Assembly (NCBI RefSeq): GCF_000340375.1
Contig: NZ_KB446648.1
Span: 58,576 to 102,882, forward strand
Length of the DNA: 44,307 nucleotides
Origin: Eggerthia catenaformis OT 569 = DSM 20559
Lineage (GTDB): Bacteria > Bacillota_I > Bacilli_A > Erysipelotrichales > Coprobacillaceae
Direction: 5' to 3'
Shown: positions 27 to 32,425 of the stretch, one piece after another
Numbering within the stretch: the first letter of the stretch is position 1
Layout: every line of letters begins with the position of its first letter
Notes under the pieces: generated by a model
Told to the model about the DNA's origin: nothing
What the model saw: only the letters and a program-made list of their open reading frames with translations
Database searches by the model: none
Made by a program: the position numbers and the translations under genes

Positions 27-122
27 ATTAGAATATAACCAAAGTGGAATGTAAATTTTGAATTGTTTTGTTTTCGGCTTGATTTTTCGTTTATTAGAAT
101 ATAACCAAAGTGGTCTTGTGGT
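27..122 (+). CRISPR. CRISPR array 1, trailer end (array enters from upstream of the window)
   Basis: One complete 30-bp repeat lies at 27-56. It begins ATTAGAATATAACC and ends AAAGTGGAATGTAAAT. A 36-bp spacer follows (57-92), then a terminal repeat at 93-122 whose first 21 bases are intact and whose last nine have diverged to TCTTGTGGT. Bases 1-26 are probably the end of another spacer. A degenerate last repeat marks the trailer end, so the array is read on the + strand, and the GGAATGTAAAT 3' end resembles repeats of clostridial type I-B/III systems. The trailer bases after 113 are homologous to those after array 2. Confidence 0.9.
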
Positions 123-244
123 CGGATAGGGATACATATAAGTTTTTAATTTTTAAAGTTTTTATGATGAATGACATTTTATTTATGACACAATATGCTC
201 TATAAAATGAATTGTTTGGAGATTTGAATAAAGGGGACAAAGAA

Positions 245-1273
245 ATGGATAAAAAAGATGAAATGATGATCGTAAATCATGAATCCCTTGTAAAAAAGAT
301 TTATATTATTAGGGGACAAAAGGTTATGCTTGATTTTGAGCTGGCAGAGATTTATGGATATGAAACGAAAAATTTCAACAGGCAGGTCAAGAATAATATT
401 GAGAAATTTGAAGGCGAAGATTTTATGTTCAGGCTCACCGAAGAAGAAATGGATGACTTGAGGTGCAAACTTTTCACCTCAAGTTGGGGTGGTACAAGAT
501 ACCTTCCTTATGCCTTTACTGAACAGGGAATCTATATGCTGATGACTGTATTAAAGGGTGACCTTGCTGTAAGGCAAAGCAGAGCTTTAGTTCGTACTTT
601 CAAGCAAATGAAAGACTACATTGTAGAAAATCAAGGGTTGATTGGGAAAAGAGAGTTTTTGCAGCTTTCGATGCAAATCACAAGTAATGTCGTGGAAATG
701 CAGGATTTAAGACGGGATTTAATGAATGTGGAAGATAAGGTGGCAGGATTAGTGAACAATTTAGGGAATGTTGTGCATAAATCCGAACTGTCTGACCTGA
801 TTCTTGACCTCAGTAATCCACAACTCAAATACGGATTTTTACTTTTGAACGGACAGCCGATTGAAGCCAATCTTGCTTATAAGGACATTTACAGCATAGC
901 GAAAAAGAGCATTTATATCGTCGATAACTACATCGGAGTGAAAACTTTGGTCTTGCTAAAAGACGTTCCTTCATCTGTAGAGGTCATTATATTTAGCGAT
1001 AACATCGGCAAAGGACTTCATACCCTTGAATATCAGGATTTCTATCAAGAATATCCGTTTAGAAAGATAACTTTCCAAAAATCCGGTGGAGAGTTTCATG
1101 ACAGATACATTATTATTGACTGGAATACCGAACATCAGAGAATCTATCATTGCGGAGCGTCTTCCAAAGATGCAGGACAAAGAATTACGAGCATAACGGA
1201 AGTAGTAGATCAGATGATTTACACCGACCTTATCAATAATCTATTGAAAAATCCAGTGTTGAAGTTAAAATAA
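245..1273 (+). CDS. ORF6N-domain protein with C-terminal PLD-like domain
   Basis: A 342-residue protein. Residues about 10-115 match the ORF6N domain found in phage antirepressor-like DNA-binding proteins, including the GGTRYLPYAFTEQGIYML stretch. A helical, probably coiled-coil segment follows (about 125-190). The C-terminal part has the pattern FHDRYIIID ... YHCGASSKDAG, which resembles the C-terminal phospholipase-D-like fold of related ORF6N proteins. The ATG at 245 is chosen because AAAGGGGAC precedes it; a TTG at 212 in the same frame is less likely. The gene follows array 1 by about 120 bp, and a decayed paralogue stands in the same order after array 2 (4990-5654). The DNA target is unknown. 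A role as a phage- or plasmid-derived regulator or effector is inference. Confidence 0.75.
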   Translation: MDKKDEMMIVNHESLVKKIYIIRGQKVMLDFELAEIYGYETKNFNRQVKNNIEKFEGEDFMFRLTEEEMDDLRCKLFTSSWGGTRYLPYAFTEQGIYMLMTVLKGDLAVRQSRALVRTFKQMKDYIVENQGLIGKREFLQLSMQITSNVVEMQDLRRDLMNVEDKVAGLVNNLGNVVHKSELSDLILDLSNPQLKYGFLLLNGQPIEANLAYKDIYSIAKKSIYIVDNYIGVKTLVLLKDVPSSVEVIIFSDNIGKGLHTLEYQDFYQEYPFRKITFQKSGGEFHDRYIIIDWNTEHQRIYHCGASSKDAGQRITSITEVVDQMIYTDLINNLLKNPVLKLK

Positions 1274-1535
1274 TGTATGACTATATGCATAAAAAGATAT
1301 AATATAAAAGAATTAAATCTGAGTATTATCAAATATAATGGTAAAGTTATCTGTTTCTGGATTGATATGATGTAAAAATGTAGAGATATAAAGATATACA
1401 GATGATAAATTTTTAATTGTCTATGTGGGTACTGTTTTAAGTGATATAATGTAGTTTTATTATATAGCATAAATGATAGACTTGATTTGTGGAGATTTCA
1501 AAAAGTAATAAAATAGATTTAAGGAGGATTTAAAT

Positions 1536-3008
1536 TTGAAATATGAGGATTTTGAAAGTATAATGAAAAAACAGGGTACAGCGATAGTCTTAGATACTAA
1601 TGTGATTTTAGATTTAGCAAGATATTCTTTATATACAAGTAAAAATGTTTTAGGAATTTTTAATGAATGTGCAGATTTAATATGGATTCCGTATCAGGTT
1701 TTTAAAGAATATAGTAAAAATAAGTATCGTGTGTTTGGAGATTTAAGAAAAAGGTATTTAAGTTTTGAAAATAATCTATTATCTATAATTGATGCTAGTG
1801 AAAAGAAACTTGAAAATGCTTTGAATAGTTCTTATAAATATAAATATTTTGGTAATAGAGCTCTTTCAAACGATATATCAAAAAAAATGGAAGAATGTAG
1901 AGAGATTATAATATCATATAAAAATACTGTAGGAAGAGAATATAATGAAATCACATCTGATTCGCCTGAAATAATAAAAGATATAGAAAAATTTATTTCT
2001 GATTTAGGAACAAACGAACAAATAGGGAAAGAAATTGGTTTTAAGGAACAATTGGAAATAATAAAGGAAGGAGAATTAAGATATAAGTATAAATTACCAC
2101 CAGGATTTAAAGATGATAAAAAAGATGGAATGGAAAAATTTGGAGATTTGTTTGTGTGGAAAGAAATACTAAAGTTACCCACCAATAAAAATATAAATAA
2201 TATTATCTTTGTCACTAATGATGAAAAAGATGATTGGTGGAGAAAGGATAAGCATGGTAACTTAGAAATACGAGGTGAACTTCTTGATGAATTTACAGAA
2301 ATCAATCCTAATGTGTCTATTATTTTTATGACAATAGGTATGTTTCAAAAATATGCTTCTAAATTATATGATTTATATGAGTTTGGAGTTTATGTGGATT
2401 TGAATAGAAATGATGAATCTTTTATCGAAAGAGTATCTGATAGAATAGCAGATGATGTAATTGAAGAAATATATAATAATGCATATGATTATTTAGAGTC
2501 AGAAGATATTGGTAGTGAAGGAATTGAAGATGTAGATATTGTAGAATGTTCATTAATAGGCATAAATGGAGTATATTCGGATTTAATTGATGGTGAAGTA
2601 TGTATAATTTATGAATTAGAATATGAGATAGAATTATATTGTAACTCATATGAATATTGGGGGCGTGATGATGATACCAAAGAAGTTATAAAATCACCAG
2701 CTATTGAGCATGCTTTTAAGGGAAATGTTATAGTTTCAGTAGAAAGAATTATTCAGGAAAGTGAAATAGAATCAAACTATAATTATTTGGATGAAGATGA
2801 GGATTATCAAGAATTAGAAATTACGAATAATAATATAGAACAAATTTATGTAAATAGTAGTGAAGATATGTATTTTGATGAAGAGTTTGATTTTGAAGAA
2901 AAACAATTTAAAAGCGGAGTGTTTACTTGTCCTAAATGTGGAAAAATTTTCACGGATCATTGTGAGGATATGGGTGGATTTTGCGTTAACTGTGCTTTTG
3001 AAGATTAA
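1536..3008 (+). CDS. PIN_8-like nuclease with C-terminal zinc ribbon
   Basis: A 490-residue protein. The N-terminus reads VLDTNVILDLARY (Asp20 as first metal ligand), followed by the pattern GDLFVWKEIL and IIFVTNDEKDDWW near residues 205-230. This order is typical of the PIN-like domain family PF18476, which belongs to the metal-dependent ribonuclease fold. Residues about 290-440 form an acidic region rich in predicted strands. The last 30 residues hold CPKC ... CVNC, a likely zinc ribbon. The start is TTG at 1536, supported by AAGGAGG eight bases upstream; the next ATG is nine codons in and lacks such a site. The gene lies alone between the ORF6N gene and the array 2 leader. A defence role, possibly linked to the type III system, is inferred from position only. 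Confidence 0.75.
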   Translation: MKYEDFESIMKKQGTAIVLDTNVILDLARYSLYTSKNVLGIFNECADLIWIPYQVFKEYSKNKYRVFGDLRKRYLSFENNLLSIIDASEKKLENALNSSYKYKYFGNRALSNDISKKMEECREIIISYKNTVGREYNEITSDSPEIIKDIEKFISDLGTNEQIGKEIGFKEQLEIIKEGELRYKYKLPPGFKDDKKDGMEKFGDLFVWKEILKLPTNKNINNIIFVTNDEKDDWWRKDKHGNLEIRGELLDEFTEINPNVSIIFMTIGMFQKYASKLYDLYEFGVYVDLNRNDESFIERVSDRIADDVIEEIYNNAYDYLESEDIGSEGIEDVDIVECSLIGINGVYSDLIDGEVCIIYELEYEIELYCNSYEYWGRDDDTKEVIKSPAIEHAFKGNVIVSVERIIQESEIESNYNYLDEDEDYQELEITNNNIEQIYVNSSEDMYFDEEFDFEEKQFKSGVFTCPKCGKIFTDHCEDMGGFCVNCAFED

Positions 3009-3094
3009 CAACATAAAGATGTAAAGTGTGATAGAGAAGTATATGTTTCTGATAAGAATAGGATTGAAATAATTAAAAAAAAGAAATTAAAAAT

Positions 3095-3129
3095 GTATCC
3101 AATACTTGACACAAGGGTGGAATGTAAAT
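3095..3129 (+). promoter_or_regulatory. CRISPR leader element with half-repeat (array 2)
   Basis: This 35-bp element runs from GTATCCAATACTTGACAC to GTGGAATGTAAAT. Its last 13 bases equal the 3' end of the repeat, and its 5' part is leader-specific. An identical element precedes array 3 (14273-14307), and a copy with four substitutions lies at 5689-5723. It is followed by 37 bp, a normal spacer length, and then the first intact repeat. The TTGACA inside has no -10 box at 16-18 bp, so it is probably not a promoter. Confidence 0.75.
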
Positions 3130-3527
3130 TCATGTGCGATATAATCTGTATTCCACTTTAAACTCAATTAGAATATAACCAAAGTGGAATGTAAATGACT
3201 TTACGGTATGATAATAACTACTGATATCTATTCATTAGAATATAACCAAAGTGGAATGTAAATTTGCTTCAGCAAGCTCATTCTGTTTAGCAAGATACAA
3301 TTAGAATATAACCAAAGTGGAATGTAAATTCGTCATGAGAACAGTCATGAATACTGCAAATCCTTTATTAGAATATAACCAAAGTGGAATGTAAATCATA
3401 ATCATTGATATCATTAGGAATCTTTACATACAATTAGAATATAACTAAAGTGGAATGTAAATTAATGATACATAATTGCAATTTCCTTCATGTCCTTATT
3501 AGAATATAACCAAAGTGGGCTTGTGGT
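3100..3527 (+). CRISPR. CRISPR array 2
   Basis: Intact 30-bp repeats lie at 3167-3196, 3234-3263, 3300-3329 and 3367-3396. A fifth at 3433-3462 has one substitution (AACTAAAG for AACCAAAG). A sixth, at 3498-3527, is intact for 21 bases and then diverges. Spacers are 35-37 bp. The leader side adds a pseudo-repeat (3100-3129) and a 37-bp spacer-like segment (3130-3166). Orientation is + by the degenerate last repeat and by the conserved upstream leader element. I cannot identify the spacer targets. Confidence 0.96.
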
Positions 3528-4010
3528 CTGAGAGAGATACAGAGAGAAAAGCCAGATAAATAGGAGCTTTCAGCACTGTATCCTTATTTTAGAAATCGTG
3601 AAAATCAAATAATCAGGTCTAAAAGGAGGATTTTATGAGATGTAAAAATATTTCAAGCCGATATATTCGCCTTTTCGGTGGTAAGGTAAGAATGAAATGA
3701 CATGGATAATTAAAATATTCTTGTTTTCAATTTCTACTAAGTCCTTACGGAATACCGGATGATAGGAGCAGCAGTTTATAGGTTTATTACATTGTAAATG
3801 GGGAATGAGTTATCATAAAGATATTGGATATTTTGAGAGAACAAAGGATATAAAATTTGCATTGGAACGAAAGAAAAATAGAATTTTAGCAATCAACTGG
3901 GGAACAAATATGATGAATATAAATAATGTTTGTTTCCCATAAAGCATTGAGATTTGGGGAATAAAATGGTACAATTTTATCAAGAAATGTTCTCCAAAGG
4001 AGTAAAAATA
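3528..4010. other. Intergenic region between array 2 and the fic pseudogene
   Basis: The first 25 bp repeat the array 1 trailer (CTTGTGGTC then GAGAGAGATACA against GATAGGGATACA). Short open frames such as 3805-3942 (45 codons) match nothing I recognise. A good promoter stands at the end: TTGAGA at 3947-3952, 17 bp, TACAAT at 3970-3975, with AAAGGAGT at 3996-4003 serving the fic remnant. Confidence 0.6.
3947..3975 (+). promoter_or_regulatory. Promoter of the fic pseudogene
   Basis: TTGAGA and TACAAT are separated by exactly 17 bp and lie 36 bp before the ATG at 4011. This is a near-consensus sigma-A promoter that survives although the gene behind it is broken. Confidence 0.55.
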
Positions 4011-4959
4011 ATGAATATAAAATATAACGAAATACAAGAATTACTTAGAGGTCGTGCTGATCTCCATGCTAGATTGAATTTGATGCCCTATGATGGTACA
4101 CCTGAAATGAAAGAACGTGGCGATGGGAAGTATTTATACGTTAGAAAGTGTGTAGCCGGTAAATTGACATCAACATATGTAGGAATATACACTGAAGAAC
4201 TCTATAATTTACTACTTCGTAACGCTAGAGAAATATGTGAAATTATGTGAAATAAGGAAAGAACTTAGACGTGCAGAAAAGAAACTTGCTGATGCAGGAT
4301 ACTCAGAAGATCAATTATCTGTTGATGTTATGAATAATATTTCCTTCGCAAGAACAAATATGAAGGTGAATATTTATGAACAGGCTGTATTGAAGGGAGG
4401 GTGGCTACATCTTTTCCACAAACAGAAGAAATCATAGATAATGGAAAAGTTTCCGGCATGACAGCAACGGATGTATAGAAAATCTTAAATCTGAAACATG
4501 CATGGGAATTTCTTTTGGACAAGGATGTAATAGCAAGTACATCGGATTATTATATGCTTAGCCATATTGCAAGGCTTGTGAATGAAGGATTTTTTCAGAA
4601 GGCGGTCGTATTCGAGGTGTTCCCGTAACCATCGGAGGTTCCTCTTATGTACCACCGTTACCAAATGAAGGTGATGTGAAAGACAGAATACGAGAGCTTA
4701 CGGAAGAAAATGGCGATGTAATTGATGTTGCAATCAAATTATGCTTTTATTGTATGAAGATTCAAATTTTCTTTGACGGTATAAGAGGGCATCTATTATT
4801 TTTGCGAATCACTATTTAATATCTCATGGAGGAGGCATTTTAGTTATTCCTGAAAAAGAAGTGCCAGAATTCAAAAGTTTACTTGTAAGGTATTATGAAG
4901 GAGAGAATATATCTATAATTTCTAATTTTATGAAAAAGAATTGTTGGAAGAAAATGTAA
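4011..4959 (+). pseudogene. Fic-family protein, multiply disrupted
   Basis: Successive frames read as one Fic/DOC-type protein: RADLHARLNLMPYDGTPE, then after a frameshift near 4248 EIRKELRRAEKKLADAGY, then after another near 4400 TTFPQTEEIIDNGKVSG. An in-frame TAG follows (about 4476), then LKHAWEFLLDKDV, then RIRGVPVTIGGSSYVPPL, and finally ISHGGGILVIPEKEVPEF up to CWKKM and TAA at 4957-4959. In Fic enzymes the loop HxFx(D/E)GNxR carries AMP-transfer chemistry. Here the remnant reads IFFDG followed by a frameshift exactly where GNKR should be, so the active site is lost. There are at least three frameshifts and one nonsense codon. Promoter and ribosome binding site remain, suggesting recent decay. 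Confidence 0.8.
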
Positions 4960-4989
4960 CTATAGAAGGCATTATTGGGGAACTTATTT

Positions 4990-5654
4990 TGTATTATAAT
5001 AGCAGATTTGTTCCCTTCACAAAAGAGGAATGGGAATTTTTGAGGTCAAAAAATTTGACCTCAAAATCGGAAACAGGTTCCGGATAGAAGATACTTACCT
5101 TATTAAAAGGAGATCTTGCAGTAAGGCAAAGCAGAGCTTTAGTTCGTACTTTTAAGCAAATGAAAGACTACATTATAGAAAATCAAGGGTTGATTGGCAG
5201 GAGAGAGTTTTTGCAGCTTTCGATGCAGATTACGAGTAATGTCGTGAAAATGCAGGATTTAAGACGAGATTTAAGAGATGTGGAAGAACAGGTGGCGAAA
5301 ATGGAGGACATTCTTAATAATGTGGTGCATAAATCCGAATTGTCCAACCTGATTCTTGACCTCAGCAATCCACAACTCAAATATGGATTTTTACTCTTGA
5401 ACGGACAGCTGATCGAAGTAAATCTTGCTTATAAGGACATTTACAGCATAGCGAAAAAGAGTATTTATATCGTCGATAACTATATCGGAGTGAAAACCTT
5501 GGTTTTATTGAAAGATGTTCCTTTATTGGTAGAGGTCATTATATTCAGCGACAATATCGGCAAAGGACTGCACAGCCTTGAATATCAAGATTTCTGCCAA
5601 GAATATCCGTTTAGGAAAGATAACATTCCAAAAATCAGGTGTTGCAGTTAAAAT
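4990..5654 (+). pseudogene. ORF6N-domain protein, decayed paralogue
   Basis: The segment RFVPFTKEEWEFLRSKN near 4999 and the frame opening at about 5100 (KGDLAVRQSRALVRTF) match the ORF6N gene at 245-1273. Between them an in-frame stop, a frameshift and the loss of the AFTEQGIYMLMTV segment are visible. The frame 5160-5651 is close to the paralogue residue by residue through EYQDFCQEYPFRK. The sequence then jumps from AAAAATCAGGT to a 3' end (GTTGCAGTTAAAATAG) matching the very end of the intact gene, so an internal deletion removed the HDRYIIID region. Both halves of the protein are crippled. It lies between the fic remnant and the fossil leader, mirroring the array-ORF6N order upstream. Confidence 0.85.
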
Positions 5655-5688
5655 AGAACTAAATCAGATTGGAAATTTGAAAAAATAT

Positions 5689-5844
5689 GTATCCAATACT
5701 TAACATAAGGGTGAAATGTAGATGTGTTTTTGTCTCCCGGGTTATAATTTCCAGAGTTGGTATTAATTGAATCAAACTGAAATGTAAATTGTGTACAAGA
5801 GCGATAAAATCGTTTTTATAATAGAACCGAACGGAAATATAAAT
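5689..5844 (+). CRISPR. Fossil CRISPR leader and array upstream of cmr1
   Basis: A 35-bp leader element at 5689-5723 differs at four positions from those of arrays 2 and 3 (TTAACA for TTGACA among them). A 36-bp spacer-like segment follows, then a degenerate repeat at 5760-5789 (21 of 30 bases match, ending AAATGTAAAT). A second degenerate repeat lies at 5815-5844 (22 of 30, ending AAATATAAAT) after a shortened 25-bp gap. Position, spacing and conserved 3' ends together make chance unlikely. The region now serves as upstream sequence of the cmr operon. Confidence 0.75.
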
Positions 5845-5967
5845 ATGGAACTCAGAATGAGAGTGATAAGTTCTTAAGAAAGTCAGGGTATATTCGTCAA
5901 ATAAATTATCTATGCTCTAAAAGAAAGGAGGAATTGTGTTATAAATATATTTAACACATGAGAAAAG

Positions 5968-7344
5968 ATGAATATTGTAAAGAAATCGATAGTGGAGTTT
6001 TGTTTGGAGCAGATAACACCTATGATTCATTTTCAAGGAGAAGAGAAATCAGCAGGAATACGAGCAAGTGATTTGAAACCACGGTTTGATGTTTTTTTAA
6101 AAAGATATTGGTATGACTTGAAGACAGAAAGAGAAAAAACGGAAATAGAAAGCTGTATTTTAAAACAAAATGAGGAAGAATTCGAAAACAATGCTTTAGA
6201 TGAAAAAAAGAGAGTTTCGTTTGATTACAAGGTCAAAATCTTTAACAACGGTTGTAAAAACTCTAATATGACCTTTTATAAAAAGAAAAAAAAAGATAAA
6301 AATTCATTTTATGGCTCATTTTACGGGAAATTAGAAGATAATAAATTTTCTTTTTACAATGAAATTAAGATTTTATTTCTCTCGCCACATCAAGATTTAA
6401 GAAATCAAATACAAGAGTTGTTTCCCGTTTTTTTAACTGTCAACGGCTTTGGCTTGAGAAATAATAAAGGATATGGATATTTCAAACTGAAAGGAAATAC
6501 AAAGGAAAGAATATTAGAAGATATACAAAAGTATCAAAGTTTGGAAAACAAATATATAGAACAATTAAAAGTAAAAGATAAAGAAAAAGGTGTGGGAGTT
6601 TATAAATTACAAATTGAAAATAAAGTCGGTTCAATGCCTGAGAAAGTTCAAAACTTATTGGAGGATATTAAATTTTTTCATCAAATATTAAAGTCCGGTT
6701 TGAATTTTGACAAAGAGCGTGACTGCAATTCTAAGAATGATGTATATATTCCATCATTTATGCTAAAAAAATATAAAAAACAGGAAGAAGTGCTTTTTGA
6801 AAAAAAATCACTAAAATTATTCTTAAAACAAAAGGGCTATAATATAAAAGAATCTTCTAAAAAAGATGATGTTATTAAAAAAGATAAAAAAGATGATTTG
6901 AATAATCAAGAATTGTACTATGTAAGAGGGCTTTTAGGATTGGCTCCATTTTACGAGTTCAGAAATGTAAAAAAAGGAGACCGGTCAGAAATTACAGCGA
7001 GATTTAAGGTCAAAATAAAGGGAGTAGAGAGATTTCCATCACCGATTAAATATCTTCCAGTTTCATATGAAGAAATCATTATTCTTGTAGACTATAGTAA
7101 AATTGGAGAATTTCGAAAAAAGGGTGATAAAATACATTCAGTCGTTTTTTCTTTAGATAGATCCAAGAGGGAATTATCTTCAAAAATCCATTTACAAATA
7201 CCAAATGAAGAGCAATACAGTATTTATCAATTATTCAAAATAAATGGTGTAATAGAAAACGAAATAAAAGAGTTTGAAAGTGAGATAACAAAAAAAACTA
7301 GGAAATGGCAATATAGTGTAATTTCTGATATAAAAATAGGGTAG
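5968..7344 (+). CDS. cmr1: Type III-B RAMP protein Cmr1
   Basis: A 458-residue RAMP protein. The N-terminus (EFCLEQITPMIHFQGEEK, then AGIRASDLKPRFDVFLKRYW) has the Cmr1 order of a first beta strand followed by a ligand-binding helix. The glycine-rich loop NGFGLRNNKGYGYFKL near residue 165 is the RAMP signature. Cmr1 caps the 3'-guide end of the Cmr complex and helps hold target RNA. It is first in a seven-gene operon, with eight bases to cas10. The ATG at 5968 follows GAGAAAAG; a stronger AAAGGAGGAATTG near 5925 is too far away to decide the start. Lys-rich low-complexity stretches (KKKKKDKN, KKDDVIKKDKKDD) are notable. The decayed CRISPR array ends 120 bp upstream. Confidence 0.85.
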   Translation: MNIVKKSIVEFCLEQITPMIHFQGEEKSAGIRASDLKPRFDVFLKRYWYDLKTEREKTEIESCILKQNEEEFENNALDEKKRVSFDYKVKIFNNGCKNSNMTFYKKKKKDKNSFYGSFYGKLEDNKFSFYNEIKILFLSPHQDLRNQIQELFPVFLTVNGFGLRNNKGYGYFKLKGNTKERILEDIQKYQSLENKYIEQLKVKDKEKGVGVYKLQIENKVGSMPEKVQNLLEDIKFFHQILKSGLNFDKERDCNSKNDVYIPSFMLKKYKKQEEVLFEKKSLKLFLKQKGYNIKESSKKDDVIKKDKKDDLNNQELYYVRGLLGLAPFYEFRNVKKGDRSEITARFKVKIKGVERFPSPIKYLPVSYEEIIILVDYSKIGEFRKKGDKIHSVVFSLDRSKRELSSKIHLQIPNEEQYSIYQLFKINGVIENEIKEFESEITKKTRKWQYSVISDIKIG

Positions 7345-7351
7345 GTGGGTT

Positions 7352-9004
7352 ATGAACAAGAAATATATTGGAATAACAATCGGACCGATTGTAAAAACCT
7401 TGATGTTGACAACGACTCCTGCAGGTTTGTGGGGGGCAAGTTATATTTTTTCGTATTATGCAAAGAACTTAATCAAGCAGATTAAACAAGAACTTAAAAT
7501 TCCGGATGATTTTTTTATAGTACCGGTTAATACCGGAAAGGTAGAAAAGATTATCAAGAATTGTCCTTGGGCAGGGTTGTTTCATGACAGAATTATTTTT
7601 CAGACAGATCATTCTATTCCATTAAGCAAAGTCGATCAATGTATAAAAAAGTGTAAGGAAGATTTAGCAAAGGAAATTTTAACAATTTTCTTAACGGGAG
7701 ATGAGGATATTGAAAGAGCGAAGAAATTCATAGAAGATTATTTGCAAGTTCATGTAATTGAAAAAGAAGTAGAAAAGGGAAAGAATCCGATATTAGCTTT
7801 GAGTCCAAATTTGGATATTTTGGAATTGGGACAAAGCTATATTCCGAAGGAAGATAAAAATTATTTGTTAGATTTTTTAGAAAGTAGAGATAGTTTGGAG
7901 CAGGAGAAACCGGAAAATAGAAATCAAAATATAAAAAGATTCACTCAAAAAATAGAAAAAACACAACAGTTGATGAAATGGCATTTTCTTGAAGAGGAAC
8001 ACATCATTACAATTGATGATATAGCAGGAGTTAACGGAAATAAAATTGATGTAAATACTCAAACCAAAAATTATTTTGCGTTGGTAAAAGCTGATGGAGA
8101 TAATTTGGGGGGAGTTCTAAAAAGTATGGAAGATATTGAAGGAAATCAAGTAATAGAAGAAATCAAAGGCTTTTCAGAAAAATGTTTCGATTATGCAAGA
8201 AGAGCCTTTGAAAAAGTGGGAAAATATGGTGGAAAGATGATTTATGCAGGAGGCGATGATCTCCTATTCATTGCTCCGGTAAAAAATCATGGAGAAACAA
8301 TTTTTCATTTACTATCTACTTTAAATGATGAATTTATAAATTGTTTCGGCGGTTTTTCTTTCAAGGAAGAAGGACAGGAAAAAAAGATGGGATTTTCAGC
8401 AGGCGTTATGATTTGCTATTATAAATACCCTTTGAAGGAAGCACTAATCGGCGTTTTAGATCAATTGGATAAATCTAAAAAAATCAAAACCAAAAATACA
8501 ATTAGTGTTCATTTTGAAAAACATTCGGGAAAACAACATGGAATTCAATTTATAAATTTTTTCAATAACGGTGAAAATAATAAAATTTATACTATGTTTC
8601 TAGACTTGTTGGAAGAATATGGAAAACAAAACGGGCAATTAAATAATTCGAAAGATTTTTTAAGGTCGGTTGGTACGAAGTTACAAGATTATCGAAATGT
8701 TTTTTTGATTGCCATGCTAAAGGATGGTAAGAAAAAGGAAAACTATCTAAATGAAGTTTTTAAAAATCTTTTTGAAGAATATCCCGGAATTTTTGATGAG
8801 ACTAAGACAAAGGAGGAGAAAGGCGAGGAGGCAAATTACATTGAAATGATAGTTGATTTGTTGGAAGAAATTTTTTATATGAAATTATCTCTGATTCAAG
8901 ATAAAACAGAAAAAACAAAACGGCAAGCAGCTTTGGATAGTTTACAGGAAATAGAGACAGTTATAGGGTTATTGAAGTTTTATAATGAAAAGGAGATAAA
9001 ATAA
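7352..9004 (+). CDS. cas10: Cas10/Cmr2 without HD nuclease domain
   Basis: A 550-residue Cas10. It starts directly at the first palm domain (GITIGPIVKTLMLTTTPAGLWGASYIFSYY in two parts: the GPI strand and the GLWGASYIFSYY helix), so the N-terminal HD nuclease usual in Cas10 is absent. The second palm has ALVKADGDNLGG (Asp248, Asp250) and MIYAGGDDLLF with the GGDD cyclase motif at residues 300-303, so nucleotide polymerisation should be intact. The C-terminal quarter is helical and Lys/Glu-rich. In type III complexes, target RNA binding triggers this palm to make cyclic oligoadenylates. In the B. fragilis type III-B complex an HD-less Cas10 instead joins ATP to S-adenosylmethionine, and the CorA gene in this operon points to that product. 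The GTG-less ATG start follows GGGTAGGTGGGTT. Confidence 0.92.
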   Translation: MNKKYIGITIGPIVKTLMLTTTPAGLWGASYIFSYYAKNLIKQIKQELKIPDDFFIVPVNTGKVEKIIKNCPWAGLFHDRIIFQTDHSIPLSKVDQCIKKCKEDLAKEILTIFLTGDEDIERAKKFIEDYLQVHVIEKEVEKGKNPILALSPNLDILELGQSYIPKEDKNYLLDFLESRDSLEQEKPENRNQNIKRFTQKIEKTQQLMKWHFLEEEHIITIDDIAGVNGNKIDVNTQTKNYFALVKADGDNLGGVLKSMEDIEGNQVIEEIKGFSEKCFDYARRAFEKVGKYGGKMIYAGGDDLLFIAPVKNHGETIFHLLSTLNDEFINCFGGFSFKEEGQEKKMGFSAGVMICYYKYPLKEALIGVLDQLDKSKKIKTKNTISVHFEKHSGKQHGIQFINFFNNGENNKIYTMFLDLLEEYGKQNGQLNNSKDFLRSVGTKLQDYRNVFLIAMLKDGKKKENYLNEVFKNLFEEYPGIFDETKTKEEKGEEANYIEMIVDLLEEIFYMKLSLIQDKTEKTKRQAALDSLQEIETVIGLLKFYNEKEIK

Positions 9005-10213
9005 ATGGCGATATATAAAGTTTTATTTCATCCACTGGAAGAATACTTTTTTGGAGAAGACGGTTCTTTTCGTGAAGGAGTAAGCAATGCGGAATATTTT
9101 ATTACTTCCAGATTTTTTCCGAGCCAAACGACTGTATTCGGAATTATTCGATATTTAAATTTATTATGTCTAAAAGACAAAGGATCATATTCACAGGAAG
9201 AAAAGGAACTTAATAATAAGACTGTCGGGGAAAAAGGATTTTCTATCGAATCAGCCGTCAGTTCTAACAGTGAAGTTCAGAATTTTGGAATAATAAAGCG
9301 TATGAGCAGTATTTTTCTTCATGGATATGATTTAGAGGATAAAGTGAATCGAGTTTATGTAACACTTCCTAAAGACGCAAAAAAACATTCTAAAAAGGAT
9401 GTGCGGCGTTATACTTCTATTCTTGATGAAGGAAAAGAAATGATAATGACTCCAAATGGAGGAAAAGTGATCCCTTCAGGATATAATGCGAAAAAGGGAT
9501 TGGCAACTGGATTTATCAGTATTGATGCAGGAATTTCCGATGCCGGAGAGTTGTTACAAAATGAGTTATCGGTTATAGAATATCCTTTTGAATATGTTTT
9601 AAAAACAGGATTAAAAATTAATAGAAAAGTGGCCAAATCGAAGGATATGATGGATTTGACCAATCCCCAAGACCCTATGAGCTCTTTATTCAAAAAAGAA
9701 TATGTTCGATTGAAACAAGAATCAGGTGAAGTGGAATACTCGTTTGGAGTCTATGTAGAGATAGAAAATAGTGAGGAAGAGGAAGTAACAAAACGAATGA
9801 ACCGAGTTGTCGGAATGGGGTTGGGAGGTTCTTTATTTTCTGTAAGAACATCAAAAATAAAAGAAATAGAGAAAAAAAGATTAAAAAATGGATTGATTTT
9901 AAATGTGGACCAAATTTTTGAGAATCATGTAAAGAAAGAAAATATTTTGTATTGTATATCTCCGTGCTATGTAAGCAATCCACAAGACATTTTGATGAAA
10001 AGTGAGTTTGCTTCATTAGATACAGTGGTCAATCGCCCGATGAATGGTGGCAATATTGATGATGCGTGGAGAAAGACAAAAACTTTATATCGTATGATGG
10101 ATTCAGGAAGTGTCTTAATTACGAAGCGTGTGAATGAAATTATAAAAGAATTTCAAAAAAATGGGTTACAGCAAATAGGATACAATCATTATTATTTAGG
10201 AGGAGAAATATGA
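9005..10213 (+). CDS. cmr3: Type III-B protein Cmr3
   Basis: A 402-residue protein. The N-terminus FHPLEEYFFGEDGSFREG and the segment RFFPSQTTVFGIIRYLNLL are the Cmr3 hallmark: a RAMP first strand, an acidic loop, then the PS-T-GxLR helix. The C-terminus ends LGGEI, where the glycine loop of Cmr3 normally lies. Cmr3 pairs with Cas10 and grips the 5' handle of the crRNA. The start codon lies two bases after the cas10 stop and is preceded by GAAAAGGAG within cas10. The 3' end overlaps cmr4 by ATGA, indicating translational coupling. Confidence 0.88.
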   Translation: MAIYKVLFHPLEEYFFGEDGSFREGVSNAEYFITSRFFPSQTTVFGIIRYLNLLCLKDKGSYSQEEKELNNKTVGEKGFSIESAVSSNSEVQNFGIIKRMSSIFLHGYDLEDKVNRVYVTLPKDAKKHSKKDVRRYTSILDEGKEMIMTPNGGKVIPSGYNAKKGLATGFISIDAGISDAGELLQNELSVIEYPFEYVLKTGLKINRKVAKSKDMMDLTNPQDPMSSLFKKEYVRLKQESGEVEYSFGVYVEIENSEEEEVTKRMNRVVGMGLGGSLFSVRTSKIKEIEKKRLKNGLILNVDQIFENHVKKENILYCISPCYVSNPQDILMKSEFASLDTVVNRPMNGGNIDDAWRKTKTLYRMMDSGSVLITKRVNEIIKEFQKNGLQQIGYNHYYLGGEI

Positions 10214-11091
10214 AAGTCGCATTATTAAAAGCAAAGTGCATTACTAATCTGCATATTGGCACAAGTGGAAATATTTATGGAGACATAAAAAGCGAGGTGG
10301 AGAAGGATGCTGTTTTAGCAACGCCGATTATGCCCTCTTCAGGTATAAAAGGGGCTTTGCGAGACTTTTGGAGAGCAAATGGGACTACAGAAACTTCTGT
10401 TACTATTTTTGGATCCGATGCTGAAGAAGAAAATCAAAATAGAAAAGGAAACTGCAAATTTGTAAGTGGGCAACTGCTGTTTAGACCGATGAGGGTATCA
10501 AAAGGAGATCATGCATATTGTTTGGTGACAACACCTGAGTTACTTCAAGTAATGATAGATACCATTGACTCCTTTCAAATTAAATTAAATCTCCAATCTG
10601 CAAAGAGTACTGAAGATTTCGAAAAAGCTCTTAATGAAATAAAAAAGGAACTGAACGAAAAGAAAGGGCAAGTCGTAGCGGGAATTGTAAACAAAGATGA
10701 CCATGCCATCATGGAAGTTGAAGGATATGATGTAAAAGAAATACAAAGCAAAGAGAATGACCTATATAAAATTTTGCTGGAAATTAGCGAGGGTGTTCCG
10801 GTTGTTATTATGAGAACGGATTTTTTTCGGATGATCGATTTGCCGATTATTGCCAGAAATTATTTGAAAGATGGAAAAAGCACCAACTTATGGTATGAAG
10901 AATTTGTTCCTCATCAAAGTTATTTTTATTTTCCTGTGTTGTGGGAAAAAGAAGAGGCGGAAGTTTTTTCAAATTTTATTCAAGAGATTAGTAAACAACC
11001 GATTGCTTTTGGCGGAAATAATTCTGTTGGCTATGGTTATTGCACTATTACTCCAATGAATAGAGAGTGGGAGGAGAATGATGGAGAATAA
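10210..11091 (+). CDS. cmr4: Type III-B backbone protein Cmr4
   Basis: A 293-residue RAMP protein. NLHIGTSGNIYGDIKSE, then TPIMPSSGIKGALRDFWR is the Cmr4 signature with the xPxSSxKGALR element. The C-terminus carries FGGNNSVGYGYC, the second glycine-rich loop. Multiple Cmr4 copies form the filament and cut target RNA every six nucleotides with an aspartate in the GxxD loop. Here the loop has Asp25, but an ungapped alignment to Pyrococcus Cmr4 places Lys27 at the catalytic position, so cleavage needs a two-residue loop shift. GGAGGAG precedes the coupled start. Cmr5 overlaps the end. Confidence 0.9.
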   Translation: MKVALLKAKCITNLHIGTSGNIYGDIKSEVEKDAVLATPIMPSSGIKGALRDFWRANGTTETSVTIFGSDAEEENQNRKGNCKFVSGQLLFRPMRVSKGDHAYCLVTTPELLQVMIDTIDSFQIKLNLQSAKSTEDFEKALNEIKKELNEKKGQVVAGIVNKDDHAIMEVEGYDVKEIQSKENDLYKILLEISEGVPVVIMRTDFFRMIDLPIIARNYLKDGKSTNLWYEEFVPHQSYFYFPVLWEKEEAEVFSNFIQEISKQPIAFGGNNSVGYGYCTITPMNREWEENDGE

Positions 11092-11536
11092 GAGAAAAAT
11101 TGATGAATACATTCCTAAGGCGATTAATAGTCTTTCCAAAAATAAAAAAATAGTGATAAATGGAGAAATTAAAAGTGGATTTGCAGGTCAAATTGCTACC
11201 TTTTCAGTTGCAGTGTCCACAGGAAGTTTACTATCTGCCGTCGCATTTTTTAGTGAAAAGAAACAATCCGCTGTTGAGCGTCAGGAGCTAATGAATGTAA
11301 TTTACGAAATAATTACGGGAGAAAGTGCAAGTGGAAATGACACTAACAATTCTAAGGCAGTTTTACTATCCTATGTTAAGAAAAAATACGAACAAACTCA
11401 TAGTCAAAAAGGAGATGTAGGTTCCTTACTGGATTATGGGCAGCTTCAGCAAGATATTTTAAATGCAGCAATAGCGGTGAAATTAGCAATTAATTTTTTT
11501 CCAAAAGAAAAAAATAAAGGTGAGAATGGAAGATGA
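11081..11536 (+). CDS. cmr5: Type III-B small subunit Cmr5
   Basis: A 151-residue mostly helical protein. KIDEYIPKAINSLSKNKKI at the N-terminus and GEIKSGFAGQIATFSVAVST match the Cmr5 family, whose members form the minor filament that lines the target RNA. The family is usually 120-170 residues, so length is normal. ATG at 11081 is preferred over 11078 because GGAGG then lies seven bases upstream; either start overlaps cmr4. The end overlaps cmr6 by ATGA. Confidence 0.85.
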   Translation: MENKRKIDEYIPKAINSLSKNKKIVINGEIKSGFAGQIATFSVAVSTGSLLSAVAFFSEKKQSAVERQELMNVIYEIITGESASGNDTNNSKAVLLSYVKKKYEQTHSQKGDVGSLLDYGQLQQDILNAAIAVKLAINFFPKEKNKGENGR

Positions 11537-12414
11537 ATGGTGATCGGAGAAATGGGCTGCAAGAAATAGAGGAGAAAATGAATAATTCAGAAAAAAATAA
11601 GATTGCAAATTTGGGGTATGTGTTTCAAACACAGGATTATTATATGCAAACAGAGGAGGTCGAAGAGGATGTAAAAAGAATCGTTGATTTTACATTGGAC
11701 GATAAGACAAAGGAAATGATTAAAAGTCGACAAAAAGAATTACAAAAATTGACAAAAAGGGAAACTTCCAAGCTTGATATAGGCTGTTTTCAAGCTTGTG
11801 TGAGTTATCCGGGGTTGTTGGTTGGCCTGTCGAATCCTGTAATGTCGAGTTTGAAACAGGGATCGTATGAGAAAGGGCAAGACAGTGCATTTAAAATGGG
11901 TTTTAGTTTTGACTATGTAACAGGCTTACCTTATATTCCGGGATCTTCAATTAAGGGGATGTTGAGAGCTTCCATTGAGAAGTATAAGACAGATGTTTGT
12001 CAGTGGCTTGAGGATGATATAGGCATTTTGACTGATGACAGACTATTTAAAGAAATGATATATGAAATATTTGGAGATGGGAATGATGATGTAGACAATG
12101 ACAAAATCAAGAATAATACTAATGTATTAGAGAGAGATGTGTTTTTGGATGCCATTATTATTGATGGATCAAACGATAAGATTTTAAAATCAGATTATAT
12201 AACACCGCATCCATATATGTTTAAAAATCCGATACCAATTCGAATATTGGCAATTAAACCGGAAGTAAAACTTGAATTCCATTTTTTGTTAAGAGAAAAG
12301 ATAATTGCAAAAATGAATCGGGAACAAAGATTTAAACTTTATAAGGATTTAATTTTGGATTTAGGTATTGGTGCAAAAACGAATACCGGATATGGAAGTT
12401 TGAAAAAAGTTTAA
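11533..12414 (+). CDS. cmr6: Type III-B protein Cmr6
   Basis: A 293-residue RAMP protein. It shows GLSNPVMSSLKQGSYEKGQDS (in part), then DYVTGLPYIPGSSIKGMLR, the typical Cmr6 centre, and ends LGIGAKTNTGYGSLKKV, the C-terminal glycine loop. The first 60 residues are a helical extension, longer than in many Cmr6 proteins. Cmr6 caps the filament next to Cmr1. The gene is coupled to cmr5 by a four-base overlap and separated from the CorA gene by 17 bp. Confidence 0.9.
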   Translation: MNGDRRNGLQEIEEKMNNSEKNKIANLGYVFQTQDYYMQTEEVEEDVKRIVDFTLDDKTKEMIKSRQKELQKLTKRETSKLDIGCFQACVSYPGLLVGLSNPVMSSLKQGSYEKGQDSAFKMGFSFDYVTGLPYIPGSSIKGMLRASIEKYKTDVCQWLEDDIGILTDDRLFKEMIYEIFGDGNDDVDNDKIKNNTNVLERDVFLDAIIIDGSNDKILKSDYITPHPYMFKNPIPIRILAIKPEVKLEFHFLLREKIIAKMNREQRFKLYKDLILDLGIGAKTNTGYGSLKKV

Positions 12415-12431
12415 TAAAAAGGGGAAGAATA

Positions 12432-14060
12432 ATGGAAATCAAAGATAAAAATGAAAGAGTCTATAGCTATCATACTTTTTTGCTTCCTTTTGAAATTTTA
12501 AAAAGCGACAACGAAACTCTATGCAGTAAAAAAGAGATAGAAAATGTTTTGAATCAGGAGTATTGGAAACGGTTGTCAGGAGACCATCTTTCGGCATTCG
12601 ATTCTGTCATCTCAACAAACGGAATAAAAAAAGATGACAGTAAGAAAAAAAATAATAATCTAATTGAGTCTGTAGTACGGCTGGTAGAGTATAATCAAGA
12701 ACAGTATTTCCATAACAATGTAAAAAAGGCGATTCATGATGATGGGAAAAGTGGAATAGTATCAGAATATGTGTTTCAATTTGATAAAAAAAACACCAAG
12801 CGTGTCATAATTAAAAAGTTTTGTAAAAATATAAAGGAAAACTTAAACATTAATGATGAAAGTACTAATGAAAATAAAAACACCAATGATAATAATGAAT
12901 ATGTTTTAAAGGTGTCAAACGTTCGTCTTAAACTTTTTAATACAGGAATCGGAATTTTAATTTTAGAATTATGTAATGATTTATATAGAAACTTCAAAAG
13001 CGTTAAAGATATTAATGAACTTGGAAGACATATTAGTTTGCCATATATTGCACTGGAAAGCAAAAACATTGCATCTGCTCAAATATTAATATGGGATTTT
13101 TTACATTCGGATGAAAAAGAATATAATTTTGGCAAAAAAAATGAATGCTTTCTGAACGAAAAATCACCAAAAGAAAAAACTTATATGGTGGATTTTTTGA
13201 AAAATATAATTCTTAACAAAAAATATCGATCGAATTATAATTTTAAGCCATCTTTAGATGATCGAATGTTCACTTGTTGTTTAATTCAAGATGATGGACT
13301 TGCCAGAGTATATTCACGGGATTATATCGCACAAAAGGATGATGATGCACAATTCGAAAAGTTATCTAAATACTTATATGAATATATTTATATTGATAAA
13401 GATGATAGCTGCACAGCAGCTACGTTCAATTTTAGAAAAAATATTTTAAACAATTCATTATATCATCGTTGGACAGAAATTGGTACAATTTATGGAGCTT
13501 CTCATACTTCTTTTGTTGCAATTACAAGAGAAGATGAATTTTTGGACACGATTATTACTTGGCCTTTTTTAACACAATATGTAGAAATTGCTATTTTAGT
13601 TTTGGTTCAAAGAGCATCTATTTTACGATTTCAAAAACAAATACAGAGCAATATGGATAATAAAAAGATTCAAAAACTTCAATCTAAATATATTGATTAT
13701 CGCAATCAATTACATTTTTTTGAGGTAAGTTCACAAGAGCAGGGAATAGAGCTATATGAGCTTATTCAAAAACAATTGTATATCAAGAAAGAAACGGAAG
13801 TCTTAGAAAAAAATTTAGAGATATTATATGAAAAAAATAATGTGGATTATGGGAATAAGTTTAATCGATTTGGACTATTTATCGGATGTATTACTATTTT
13901 ATCCATACTTTTAGACCTAATGAACTTTATACTTGGGAGGGATTTTAACATAAAATTCTTTGATCAATTTAAATTGATAAAGTGTGAGTTGTTAATAATT
14001 TTCCTGACCACAGGTCTAATATTTTCTTTTTTTTGGAAGTTAGTGAAATGGAAAAAATAA
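12432..14060 (+). CDS. CorA-like membrane effector of type III CRISPR
   Basis: A 542-residue protein with a large soluble N-terminal part and two C-terminal membrane segments (about 480-502 and 519-538) joined by a short loop. This is the CorA magnesium-channel layout. Residues about 395-465 form the long helix expected before the first membrane segment. The canonical GMN filter after segment one is not seen; the nearest match is LMN at 496-498. Such CorA proteins occur beside type III-B operons, and the B. fragilis one is activated by SAM-AMP and is thought to disturb the membrane during infection. It is last in the cmr operon and has its own site, GGGGAAG, seven bases before ATG. Family assignment rests on topology and context; sequence motifs are weak. 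Confidence 0.78.
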   Translation: MEIKDKNERVYSYHTFLLPFEILKSDNETLCSKKEIENVLNQEYWKRLSGDHLSAFDSVISTNGIKKDDSKKKNNNLIESVVRLVEYNQEQYFHNNVKKAIHDDGKSGIVSEYVFQFDKKNTKRVIIKKFCKNIKENLNINDESTNENKNTNDNNEYVLKVSNVRLKLFNTGIGILILELCNDLYRNFKSVKDINELGRHISLPYIALESKNIASAQILIWDFLHSDEKEYNFGKKNECFLNEKSPKEKTYMVDFLKNIILNKKYRSNYNFKPSLDDRMFTCCLIQDDGLARVYSRDYIAQKDDDAQFEKLSKYLYEYIYIDKDDSCTAATFNFRKNILNNSLYHRWTEIGTIYGASHTSFVAITREDEFLDTIITWPFLTQYVEIAILVLVQRASILRFQKQIQSNMDNKKIQKLQSKYIDYRNQLHFFEVSSQEQGIELYELIQKQLYIKKETEVLEKNLEILYEKNNVDYGNKFNRFGLFIGCITILSILLDLMNFILGRDFNIKFFDQFKLIKCELLIIFLTTGLIFSFFWKLVKWKK

Positions 14061-14272
14061 ACTTGCATGGTGATATCAACTAGGCTTTATAGAAATTTTC
14101 TTAAAAGAAAATGTTTATTCTACAAAGATAGTGCAAGATTTAAAACTTTCAAAAAACCTTATGAACAATAGATGTATAAGTTTCAAAGTTCAAAAATTTC
14201 ACTATAAATAATTGTAATGTAAGTGAGATTAAAAATCTTGACCTCATATAAGCAATTTCTAAAAGAAAATAG
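14061..14272. other. Intergenic region and CRISPR leader before array 3
   Basis: No gene is seen. It is AT-rich sequence between corA and the array 3 leader element. The array promoter should lie here, but no clear pair of -35 and -10 boxes stands out. Confidence 0.4.
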
Positions 14273-14573
14273 GTATCCAATACTTGACACAAGGGTGGAA
14301 TGTAAATGTCTATATAGGCCTTGATTTCAGGACGCTTTAAGAGCATTAGAATATAACCAAAGTGGAATGTAAATAATAAAACAGTCAAAAAAGCACTGAG
14401 ATAATAAAAAATTAGAATATAGCCAAAGTGGAATGTAAATCTGATTGATGGAATACTGAGGCAGGGACATAAAATGCATTAGAATATAACCAAAGTGAAA
14501 TCTAGGTAATGACACCTCTAAAAAAGCATTGGAACTGAAACTAATTAGAATCTAAGCAGATGAAGTTCGTGAC
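14273..14573 (+). CRISPR. CRISPR array 3, decaying at its distal end
   Basis: The leader element at 14273-14307 is identical to that of array 2 and is followed by a 37-bp spacer-like segment. Repeats lie at 14345-14374 (intact), 14411-14440 (one change, ATAGCC), 14478-14507 (3' end altered to GTGAAATCTAGGT) and 14544-14573 (only ATTAGAAT and scattered bases kept). Spacers are 36-37 bp. Loss of the 8-nt handle sequence from the last two repeats means only the first two or three spacers could give normal crRNAs. Orientation is +. Confidence 0.9.
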
Positions 14574-22310: not shown

Positions 22311-22707
22311 TGCAATTTTTCCTATTCGATCATTTCATAATTACTTCACAATTTCCGATTTACCTCTAGCTCTATTTCTTAATTATACACAGGATTTGTA
22401 ACTTTTTCTACTTGTCTATTGTCTAAAAATCAGCCTTGTTGTCCAGTTTCACACCTACTGTTTTACTGATAGGAAATTATTGAGAGTACAAAAACGAAAA
22501 ATCTGCTTAAACAAAAAGGTGTAGGCAACCGATATTTTCAGTCTGATGATCCAAAGTATCAGAAATTCTATAAATCAAGAAAATAATGTTTTTCAGTAAA
22601 GATGAATTATGAACGGAACAGGAAATAAAAAATGAATTTTAGAGAGAAATGGATATCTATATAACGGATTGGCTCAATAAAAGAAATCCTTATAAGGAAA
22701 CACGATT
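22311..22707. other. Decayed sequence with left island repeat and an orphan C-terminal frame
   Basis: It contains the 36-bp direct repeat (22460-22495). Right after it an open frame without a start reads KNLLKQKGVGNRYFQSDDP and ends at the TAA before 22590. This looks like the tail of a lost gene. No promoter is obvious. Confidence 0.5.
22460..22495 (+). repeat. 36-bp direct repeat, left copy
   Basis: The segment beginning GTTTTACTGATAGGAAAT and ending TATTGAGAGTACAAAAAC is identical to 32390-32425. The two copies flank the 9.9-kb accessory island. They could be recombination or attachment sites, or ends of related mobile elements. Confidence 0.9.
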
Positions 22708-32389: not shown

Positions 32390-32425
32390 GTTTTACTGAT
32401 AGGAAATTATTGAGAGTACAAAAAC
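32390..32425 (+). repeat. 36-bp direct repeat, right copy
   Basis: Identical to 22460-22495. It lies 14 bp before the 3' end of thiT, which is the first core-like gene beyond the island. Confidence 0.9.

Follow-up and report, generated by a model that had tools for sequence, protein, structure and literature searches.

An old insertion junction of a mobile element with a TG core as the probable origin of the decayed CRISPR array upstream of cmr1 in Eggerthia catenaformis

How did a decayed CRISPR array come to lie directly upstream of cmr1 in Eggerthia catenaformis OT 569 = DSM 20559, and what is the conserved sequence at its head? The segment in question, positions 5689–5844, is part of a stretch of 44,307 nucleotides of contig NZ_KB446648.1 that is called the window here, and positions without a contig label refer to it. 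An earlier note had read this segment as a mutated leader element with two degenerate repeats, all in register, which marked the ancestral position of the array and perhaps supplied promoter sequence for cmr1.

The first 35 nucleotides (5689–5723) were found to match the 35-nt sequence preceding arrays A (3095) and B (14273) of the window at 31 of 35 positions. The two degenerate repeats, at 5760–5789 and 5815–5844, match the repeat of the window at 21/30 and 22/30 positions, respectively. When 5641–5967 was subjected to 2000 dinucleotide shuffles, the 35-nt sequence scored no higher than 25. Repeat scores of 21 or more arose in 11 shuffles and scores of 22 or more in one, and no shuffle had two sites of 21 or more; the three components reported earlier are thus upheld as a set. 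A single score of 21/30 is weak, because an additional repeat-like site at 5647–5676, at the end of an ORF6N remnant, also scores 21/30, and the top repeat scores in shuffles of the whole window (n = 60) were 21–22 on either strand. The 3′ ends of the fossil units fall at 5723, 5789, and 5844, which gives unit lengths of 66 and then 55 bp. The supposed register was therefore kept in the first unit and lost in the second, where the spacer is 25 nt long.

Peptoniphilus mikwangii was found to carry the same fossil arrangement with 4 differences in 156 bases. Against a repeat of that species, GTGATAATAGAATCAAAATGAAATGTAAAT, degenerate repeats 1 and 2 score 26/30 and 23/30, respectively, a pair that was reached in 0 of the 2000 shuffles. 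Repeat 1 matches the repeat types of P. mikwangii at 26–27 of 30 positions versus 21 for the window repeat, and for repeat 2 there is no real difference (23/30 versus 22/30). Read on the plus strand, the fossil consists of a decayed right end of a mobile element (5689–5713, the "leader" of the earlier note), which ends in a TG core, the 3′ remainder of a first interrupted repeat (5714–5723; AAATGTAGAT, which is AAATGTAAAT in the P. mikwangii type), a decayed spacer of 36 nt (5724–5759), repeat 1, a shortened decayed spacer of 25 nt (5790–5814), and repeat 2. The right end agrees with the consensus at 24 of 26 positions when 5688 is counted, and the copy in P. mikwangii at 25 of 26. A part-repeat and two similar repeats beyond chance, with unrelated spacers that are regular in the first unit only, identify a decayed CRISPR array ahead of cmr1 in both species. 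Since the fossil repeats are closer to those of P. mikwangii than to those of the window genome, they probably arrived with the element from an earlier host; what was called the ancestral array position does hold a decayed array, but one that would have belonged to that earlier host.

We regard it as improbable that cmr1 takes its promoter from the junction, as the earlier note had also suggested. The intact right end contains TTGACA, and the stretch between the fossil and cmr1 (5845–5967) has only 1 substitution in 123 positions between the two species. However, a scan found 2 promoter-like sites versus 2.4 expected from shuffles, the window genome carries TTAACA where the match had been, the well-conserved part lies downstream of the fossil, and the alignment of a Johnsonella sequence to the window starts only at 5911. 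The fossil diverges like the decayed DNA upstream of it (4/156 versus 47/2169; Fisher p 0.77), and no selective constraint on 5689–5844 was detected in this comparison, in which so few changes leave room for weak constraint.

The sequence once taken for a leader is best interpreted as belonging to a mobile element, whose right end it forms, because it is found in four repeat families, outside CRISPR arrays, and beside genes for serine recombinases. This end has the form GTATCCAATACTTGACACAAGGG-TG, and in the CRISPR cases the 3′ part of the host's own repeat comes next. The window genome contains four copies at no more than three mismatches; those at C3:57410, 61670, and 72848 are exact, and the fossil (C3:64264) has three mismatches. 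The last bases of the three exact copies are the 3′ part of the window repeat, and in P. mikwangii the copy that comes after the cmr genes terminates in TG-AAATGTAAAT, which is likewise the 3′ part of that species' repeat. In two near-identical IMG/VR records (L057 and L058) and in genome G1057, the right end is continued by the 3′ part of GTTTGAGTATGATGTAATTTCGTATAGGTATTAAAC and of GTTTGAGAGTAGTGTAATTTCATATGGTAGTCAAAC, respectively. These are unrelated 36-nt repeats, both of which we take to be type II-like.

Two junctions lie outside CRISPR arrays. The one in G887 is within an IS200 tnpA gene (Y1_Tnp by Pfam), at ...TG followed by GAATTGTAAG, and the one in G1079 is near alr, where TG is followed by ATATTTAAAAG; no short direct repeats were found around the latter in the 10.9 kb examined. 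The junctions have TG in common, and NAAT comes next in most of them. Six of the eight intact right-end junctions are in CRISPR repeats (three in the window genome and one each in P. mikwangii, L057/L058 counted once, and G1057). By genome or record the proportion is 4/6, and among the sources found through parts of the element alone (L057/L058, G1057, G887, and G1079) it is 2/4. Record L065 was kept out of this count because its contig, which bears a related recombinase block, stops short of the right end. As far as these sequences indicate, CRISPR repeats are frequent targets but not the sole ones, in a set too small to gauge preference. The right-end pattern was searched for in sets of 130 genomes (1 with a match), 392 genomes (1, the window's own), and 349 genomes (3), and in viral_contigs (2 records); several of the genome sets used in this search and in those for recombinase 3 and Cmr1 overlap.

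At the left ends, the repeat is cut at ...AAAGTG and is followed by G(G/T)CTTG...GATACA. This was observed at positions 113 and 3518 of the window, at C5:19243 (minus strand), and at C2:93 of P. mikwangii, so that the left end adjoins ...AAAGTG of a cut repeat in four of four CRISPR cases. Only the right end is visible for the two 36-nt repeats and for G1079, and the two left-end patterns gave 0 and 0 matches in viral_contigs. Joining the flanks rebuilds the exact window repeat at all three insertions in the window genome, with a repeat spacing of 65–67 bp on either side of each junction. An imperfect inverted repeat results when the ends of the element are joined (12/23; permutation p 0.0045). 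The constant ends, the constant 2-bp TG core, and the target restored in 3/3 repeats are features expected of site-specific integration by a large serine recombinase.

From these junctions, the main array of the window genome, its array at 57.4 kb, and arrays A and B appear to be one array cut by three insertions. Within the window, all on the plus strand, a CRISPR repeat cut at ...CCAAAGTG (93–112) forms the left flank of element 1 (113–3119; left end 113–137, right end 3095–3119), which contains an ORF6N gene (212–1273; PADLOC candidate PDC-S05) and a PIN_8 gene (1536–3008). Array A (3120–3517) starts and stops inside repeats and separates element 1 from element 2, the 10.8-kb cmr element (3518–14297). 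The left end of element 2 is at 3518–3542 and its intact right end, which ends in the TG core, is at 14273–14297; array B (14298–14557), the distal remainder of the interrupted array, follows with its last repeats degenerate. No recombinase match was found inside elements 1 and 2. The largest insertion has a left end on contig C5 and a right end on contig C3, which presumably belong to one element. Runs of N account for both large gaps in the repeat series. Such runs within the arrays are located at C3:58303–58576 and at about 20.06–20.17 kb of C5, and the spacer total is thus incomplete. Elsewhere in the window, identical 36-nt sequences occur at 22460–22495 and 32390–32425, 9.9 kb apart and each solitary; their reverse complement resembles what we take to be a type II CRISPR repeat.

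Where the interior of the element is readable (the window genome, L058, G887, G1057, and G1079), genes for large serine recombinases were found inside the right end, and in four of these sources there are three in tandem. Recombinases 1 and 2 of the window genome are encoded at C3:17637–20990; the gene for recombinase 3 starts at C3:20991, is split by another recombinase-bearing element, and resumes near 54.95 kb, after which come an ORF6N gene and then the right end. The nested element (C3, about 21.2–54.95 kb) is presumably Tn1549-like. L058 and G1079 have the same three recombinase genes ahead of the right end, and in G887 both ends were located, 59.8 kb apart, together with three tandem recombinase genes (729493–734392) and an ORF6N gene. 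G1057 has part of recombinase 3 only, on a short contig. This gene (L077, 3434–3742) breaks near the same codon (73) as that of the window genome, and the recombinase 3 gene may be a target for insertion in its own right.

Resolvase, recombinase, and zinc-ribbon domains were assigned by Pfam to four full-length proteins (three from L058 and one from the window genome) and to the G1057 fragment, and DUF4368 is present in recombinase 1. The identity of recombinase 3 among five sources is 80–95%. A relaxase was identified by Pfam in the copy of the window genome. G887 combines three tandem recombinases at one end with conjugation genes, the gene content of a triple-serine-integrase ICE, these conjugation genes being assigned from a reading of translations only. 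Searches with recombinase 3 returned one genome of 392 (the window's own), one of 391, and three loci in viral_contigs; there was no match in P. mikwangii at 1e-100, and in phages and plasmids the identity was only about 33% (2 and 1 records, respectively, at 1e-60).

Three further observations concern these relatives. At 8519–11530 of L065, a truncated recombinase 1 is accompanied by a hybrid of recombinases 2 and 3, as if from recombination within the block, with ORF6N next and then the contig end. At its far side, the G1057 array (L077, about 5400–5450) is also interrupted after ...GTAGTG, where GAATTGGCAG... follows; recombination with another site may have given rise to this join. The element of G887 contains a gene (C2:719623–721557) that, from its first residues, we take to be Tet(M)-like.

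An ordinary DDE transposon, or homologous recombination between arrays, might have spread these sequences without any serine recombinase. The ends, being imperfect inverted repeats, would be compatible with a transposon, and elements 1 and 2 have no recombinase match. This explanation is nevertheless very unlikely, given one fixed TG junction in different repeats wherever both sides are visible, no target duplication beyond TG, and the serine recombinase genes that lie immediately within the right end in all five sources named above.

The reading as a true CRISPR leader, whose array formerly took up spacers before cmr1 and has since decayed, has the same 35 nt before array A, array B, and the 57.4-kb array in its favor, as well as the degenerate repeats that follow. 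A leader lies directly before the first complete repeat of one repeat family. Here the sequence is fused inside the repeat rather than placed at its start, and it borders truncated repeats of four families as well as two sites outside CRISPR, one of them the IS200 tnpA gene of G887. A different sequence precedes the array next to the type I-B genes (cas1, cas4, cas3, cas5, cas7, cas8-type, and cas6), and no copy at no more than three mismatches was found upstream of this cas1-side array. The leader was accordingly rejected, and we give it almost no weight. A working degenerate mini-array with a guide-like RNA that regulates cmr or cas genes, in the manner of CreR, is just as implausible: the segment lies directly upstream of an effector operon and the 3′ ends of its repeats are kept in part, but the longest matches of its two pseudo-spacers in C3:1–102882 and C5:1–30000 were 10 and 11 nt (10–13 in shuffles) and none identified a cas or cmr promoter there, the 36-nt decayed spacer had no phage match, and the fossil has diverged at the rate of the decayed DNA upstream.

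Element 2 is also present in P. mikwangii, at C2:93–10802, with about 96% identity. Over 10697 aligned positions the two copies differ by 366 substitutions (3.42%); in that species the TG used for insertion lies in another repeat type, and the adjacent spacers are others. The cargo (5968–14060, plus strand) encodes Cmr1, Cas10/Cmr2, Cmr3, Cmr4, Cmr5, and Cmr6, a type III-B Cmr module, and a CorA-like protein (12432–14060; PADLOC). Between the two species, cmr1 (5968–7344) differs by 7.2% (69 gap columns), and cas10 and cmr3–6 differ by about 3%. Only about 35 bp of the newer right end of element 2 match other right ends. Upstream of the fossil, 3518–5688 (plus strand) is the decayed remnant of an older element and contains pseudogene fragments. 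Its left subterminal stretch matches C5:19243–19039 at 74%, and its ORF6N remnant (about 5101–5651) stands in the same order and spacing to the fossil right end as in the complete copy at C3:56277–57434. Because of this ORF6N spacing and the C5-like left-end DNA, element 2 is probably composite and includes an older element that sat in a P. mikwangii-type array ahead of cmr1.

Searches for Cmr1 returned 4 of 196 genomes (the window's own included), 1 of 130, and two loci in genome_contigs; viral_contigs gave none. In a Johnsonella MAG (L033), cmr1 is 82% identical, and possible repeat-like traces were seen by eye upstream of it, at L033:5716–5810, with no clear element end; an array near the cmr operon may be older still. 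More distant cmr1 relatives of the same family (L041–L043; 35–36% identity) were left out of the analysis. Plasmid and phage searches with 3000–6100 gave short matches only, in two plasmid and two phage records.

We conclude, with a probability of roughly 90%, that 5689–5844 is an old insertion junction of a TG-core element in a CRISPR repeat that was later carried along with the cmr element. An element with left end GGCTTGTGG...GATACAG and right end GTATCCAATACTTGACACAAGGG would have recombined with a CRISPR repeat at the TG common to both and left the repeat halved around it. Related elements encode large serine recombinases inside their right end, and one or more of these would have been the acting enzyme. 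The interior of this first element would then have decayed to the remnant at 3518–5688, and its right end and two more repeats of its P. mikwangii-type array would persist, mutated, ahead of cmr1. The stretch between the left end and the newer right end at 14273, cmr operon included, would subsequently have entered arrays of the window genome and of P. mikwangii as a single unit, the order and direction of these transfers being what we infer. Element 2 was probably mobilized in trans, because it lacks a recombinase match and P. mikwangii lacks a recombinase 3 match at 1e-100.

A broader proposal is tentative. Conjugative elements and recombinase-less cassettes might prefer CRISPR repeats of several types as landing sites and carry defense genes (Cmr-CorA, ORF6N/PDC-S05, the PIN gene, and an ABC-3C-type PDC-M68 pair). 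Insertion could part distal spacers from the leader, the cmr cassette may gain crRNAs through the Cas6 of its host, and a cassette could pass through successive host arrays while retaining, as in the fossil, a remnant of a former one.

CRISPR arrays are usually taken as records of invaders, and here the repeat itself would be the entry door of an integrating element. Several loci that look separate and share a "leader" can be fragments of a single array, and a shared upstream sequence is thus unsafe for calling leaders. Such insertion would also provide a route by which a type III module with no adaptation genes travels between species, and it names recombinases whose target is directly testable. 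In the open-licence PMC papers searched, no account was found of serine recombinases that use CRISPR repeats as their attachment sites.

Several known systems share features with the elements described here. The Cmr-CorA type III-B module has Cmr1–6 and a CorA-like partner, as identified here by PADLOC; the present one differs in being cargo of an element that sits in a type I-B array. In Sulfolobus islandicus, a pING1-like insertion likewise places mobile-element DNA inside a CRISPR locus, but the available part of that report describes it as spacer-like, between two complete repeats and not within one (PMC3718332). Close relatives among multi-targeting large serine recombinases use several attB sites, and DUF4368, present in recombinase 1, is common among them according to the accessible sections of that study (PMC10083194); the terms "CRISPR array" and "CRISPR repeat" are absent from its text.

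Triple-serine-integrase ICEs are known in streptococci, with mutT, traG, hsdM, snf2, and methyltransferase genes as targets in the portions available (PMC4701971, PMC12942858). By description, not by sequence comparison, the Tn1806-like ICEs of those portions resemble the present elements in that a conjugative element carries, at one of its ends, large serine recombinases in a tandem set of three; very short direct repeats at the junction and several targets within one family are also shared. They differ with respect to CRISPR, a word that occurs 0 times in PMC4701971 (2016) and only in a reference title in PMC12942858 (2026). The nearest precedent is a conjugation-type "prophage" reported in CRISPR arrays of Parvimonas micra (PMC11076991). 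As described in the part of that report at hand, it has no capsid genes and lies in a type III-B array, and a similar one is found in a II-A/III-A array with different repeats. The same part ties no recombinase to the insertion, defines neither ends nor core, and terms the element a prophage. Relative to that report, the advance of the present work is the definition of the ends, the core, and the likely recombinases across several repeat types.
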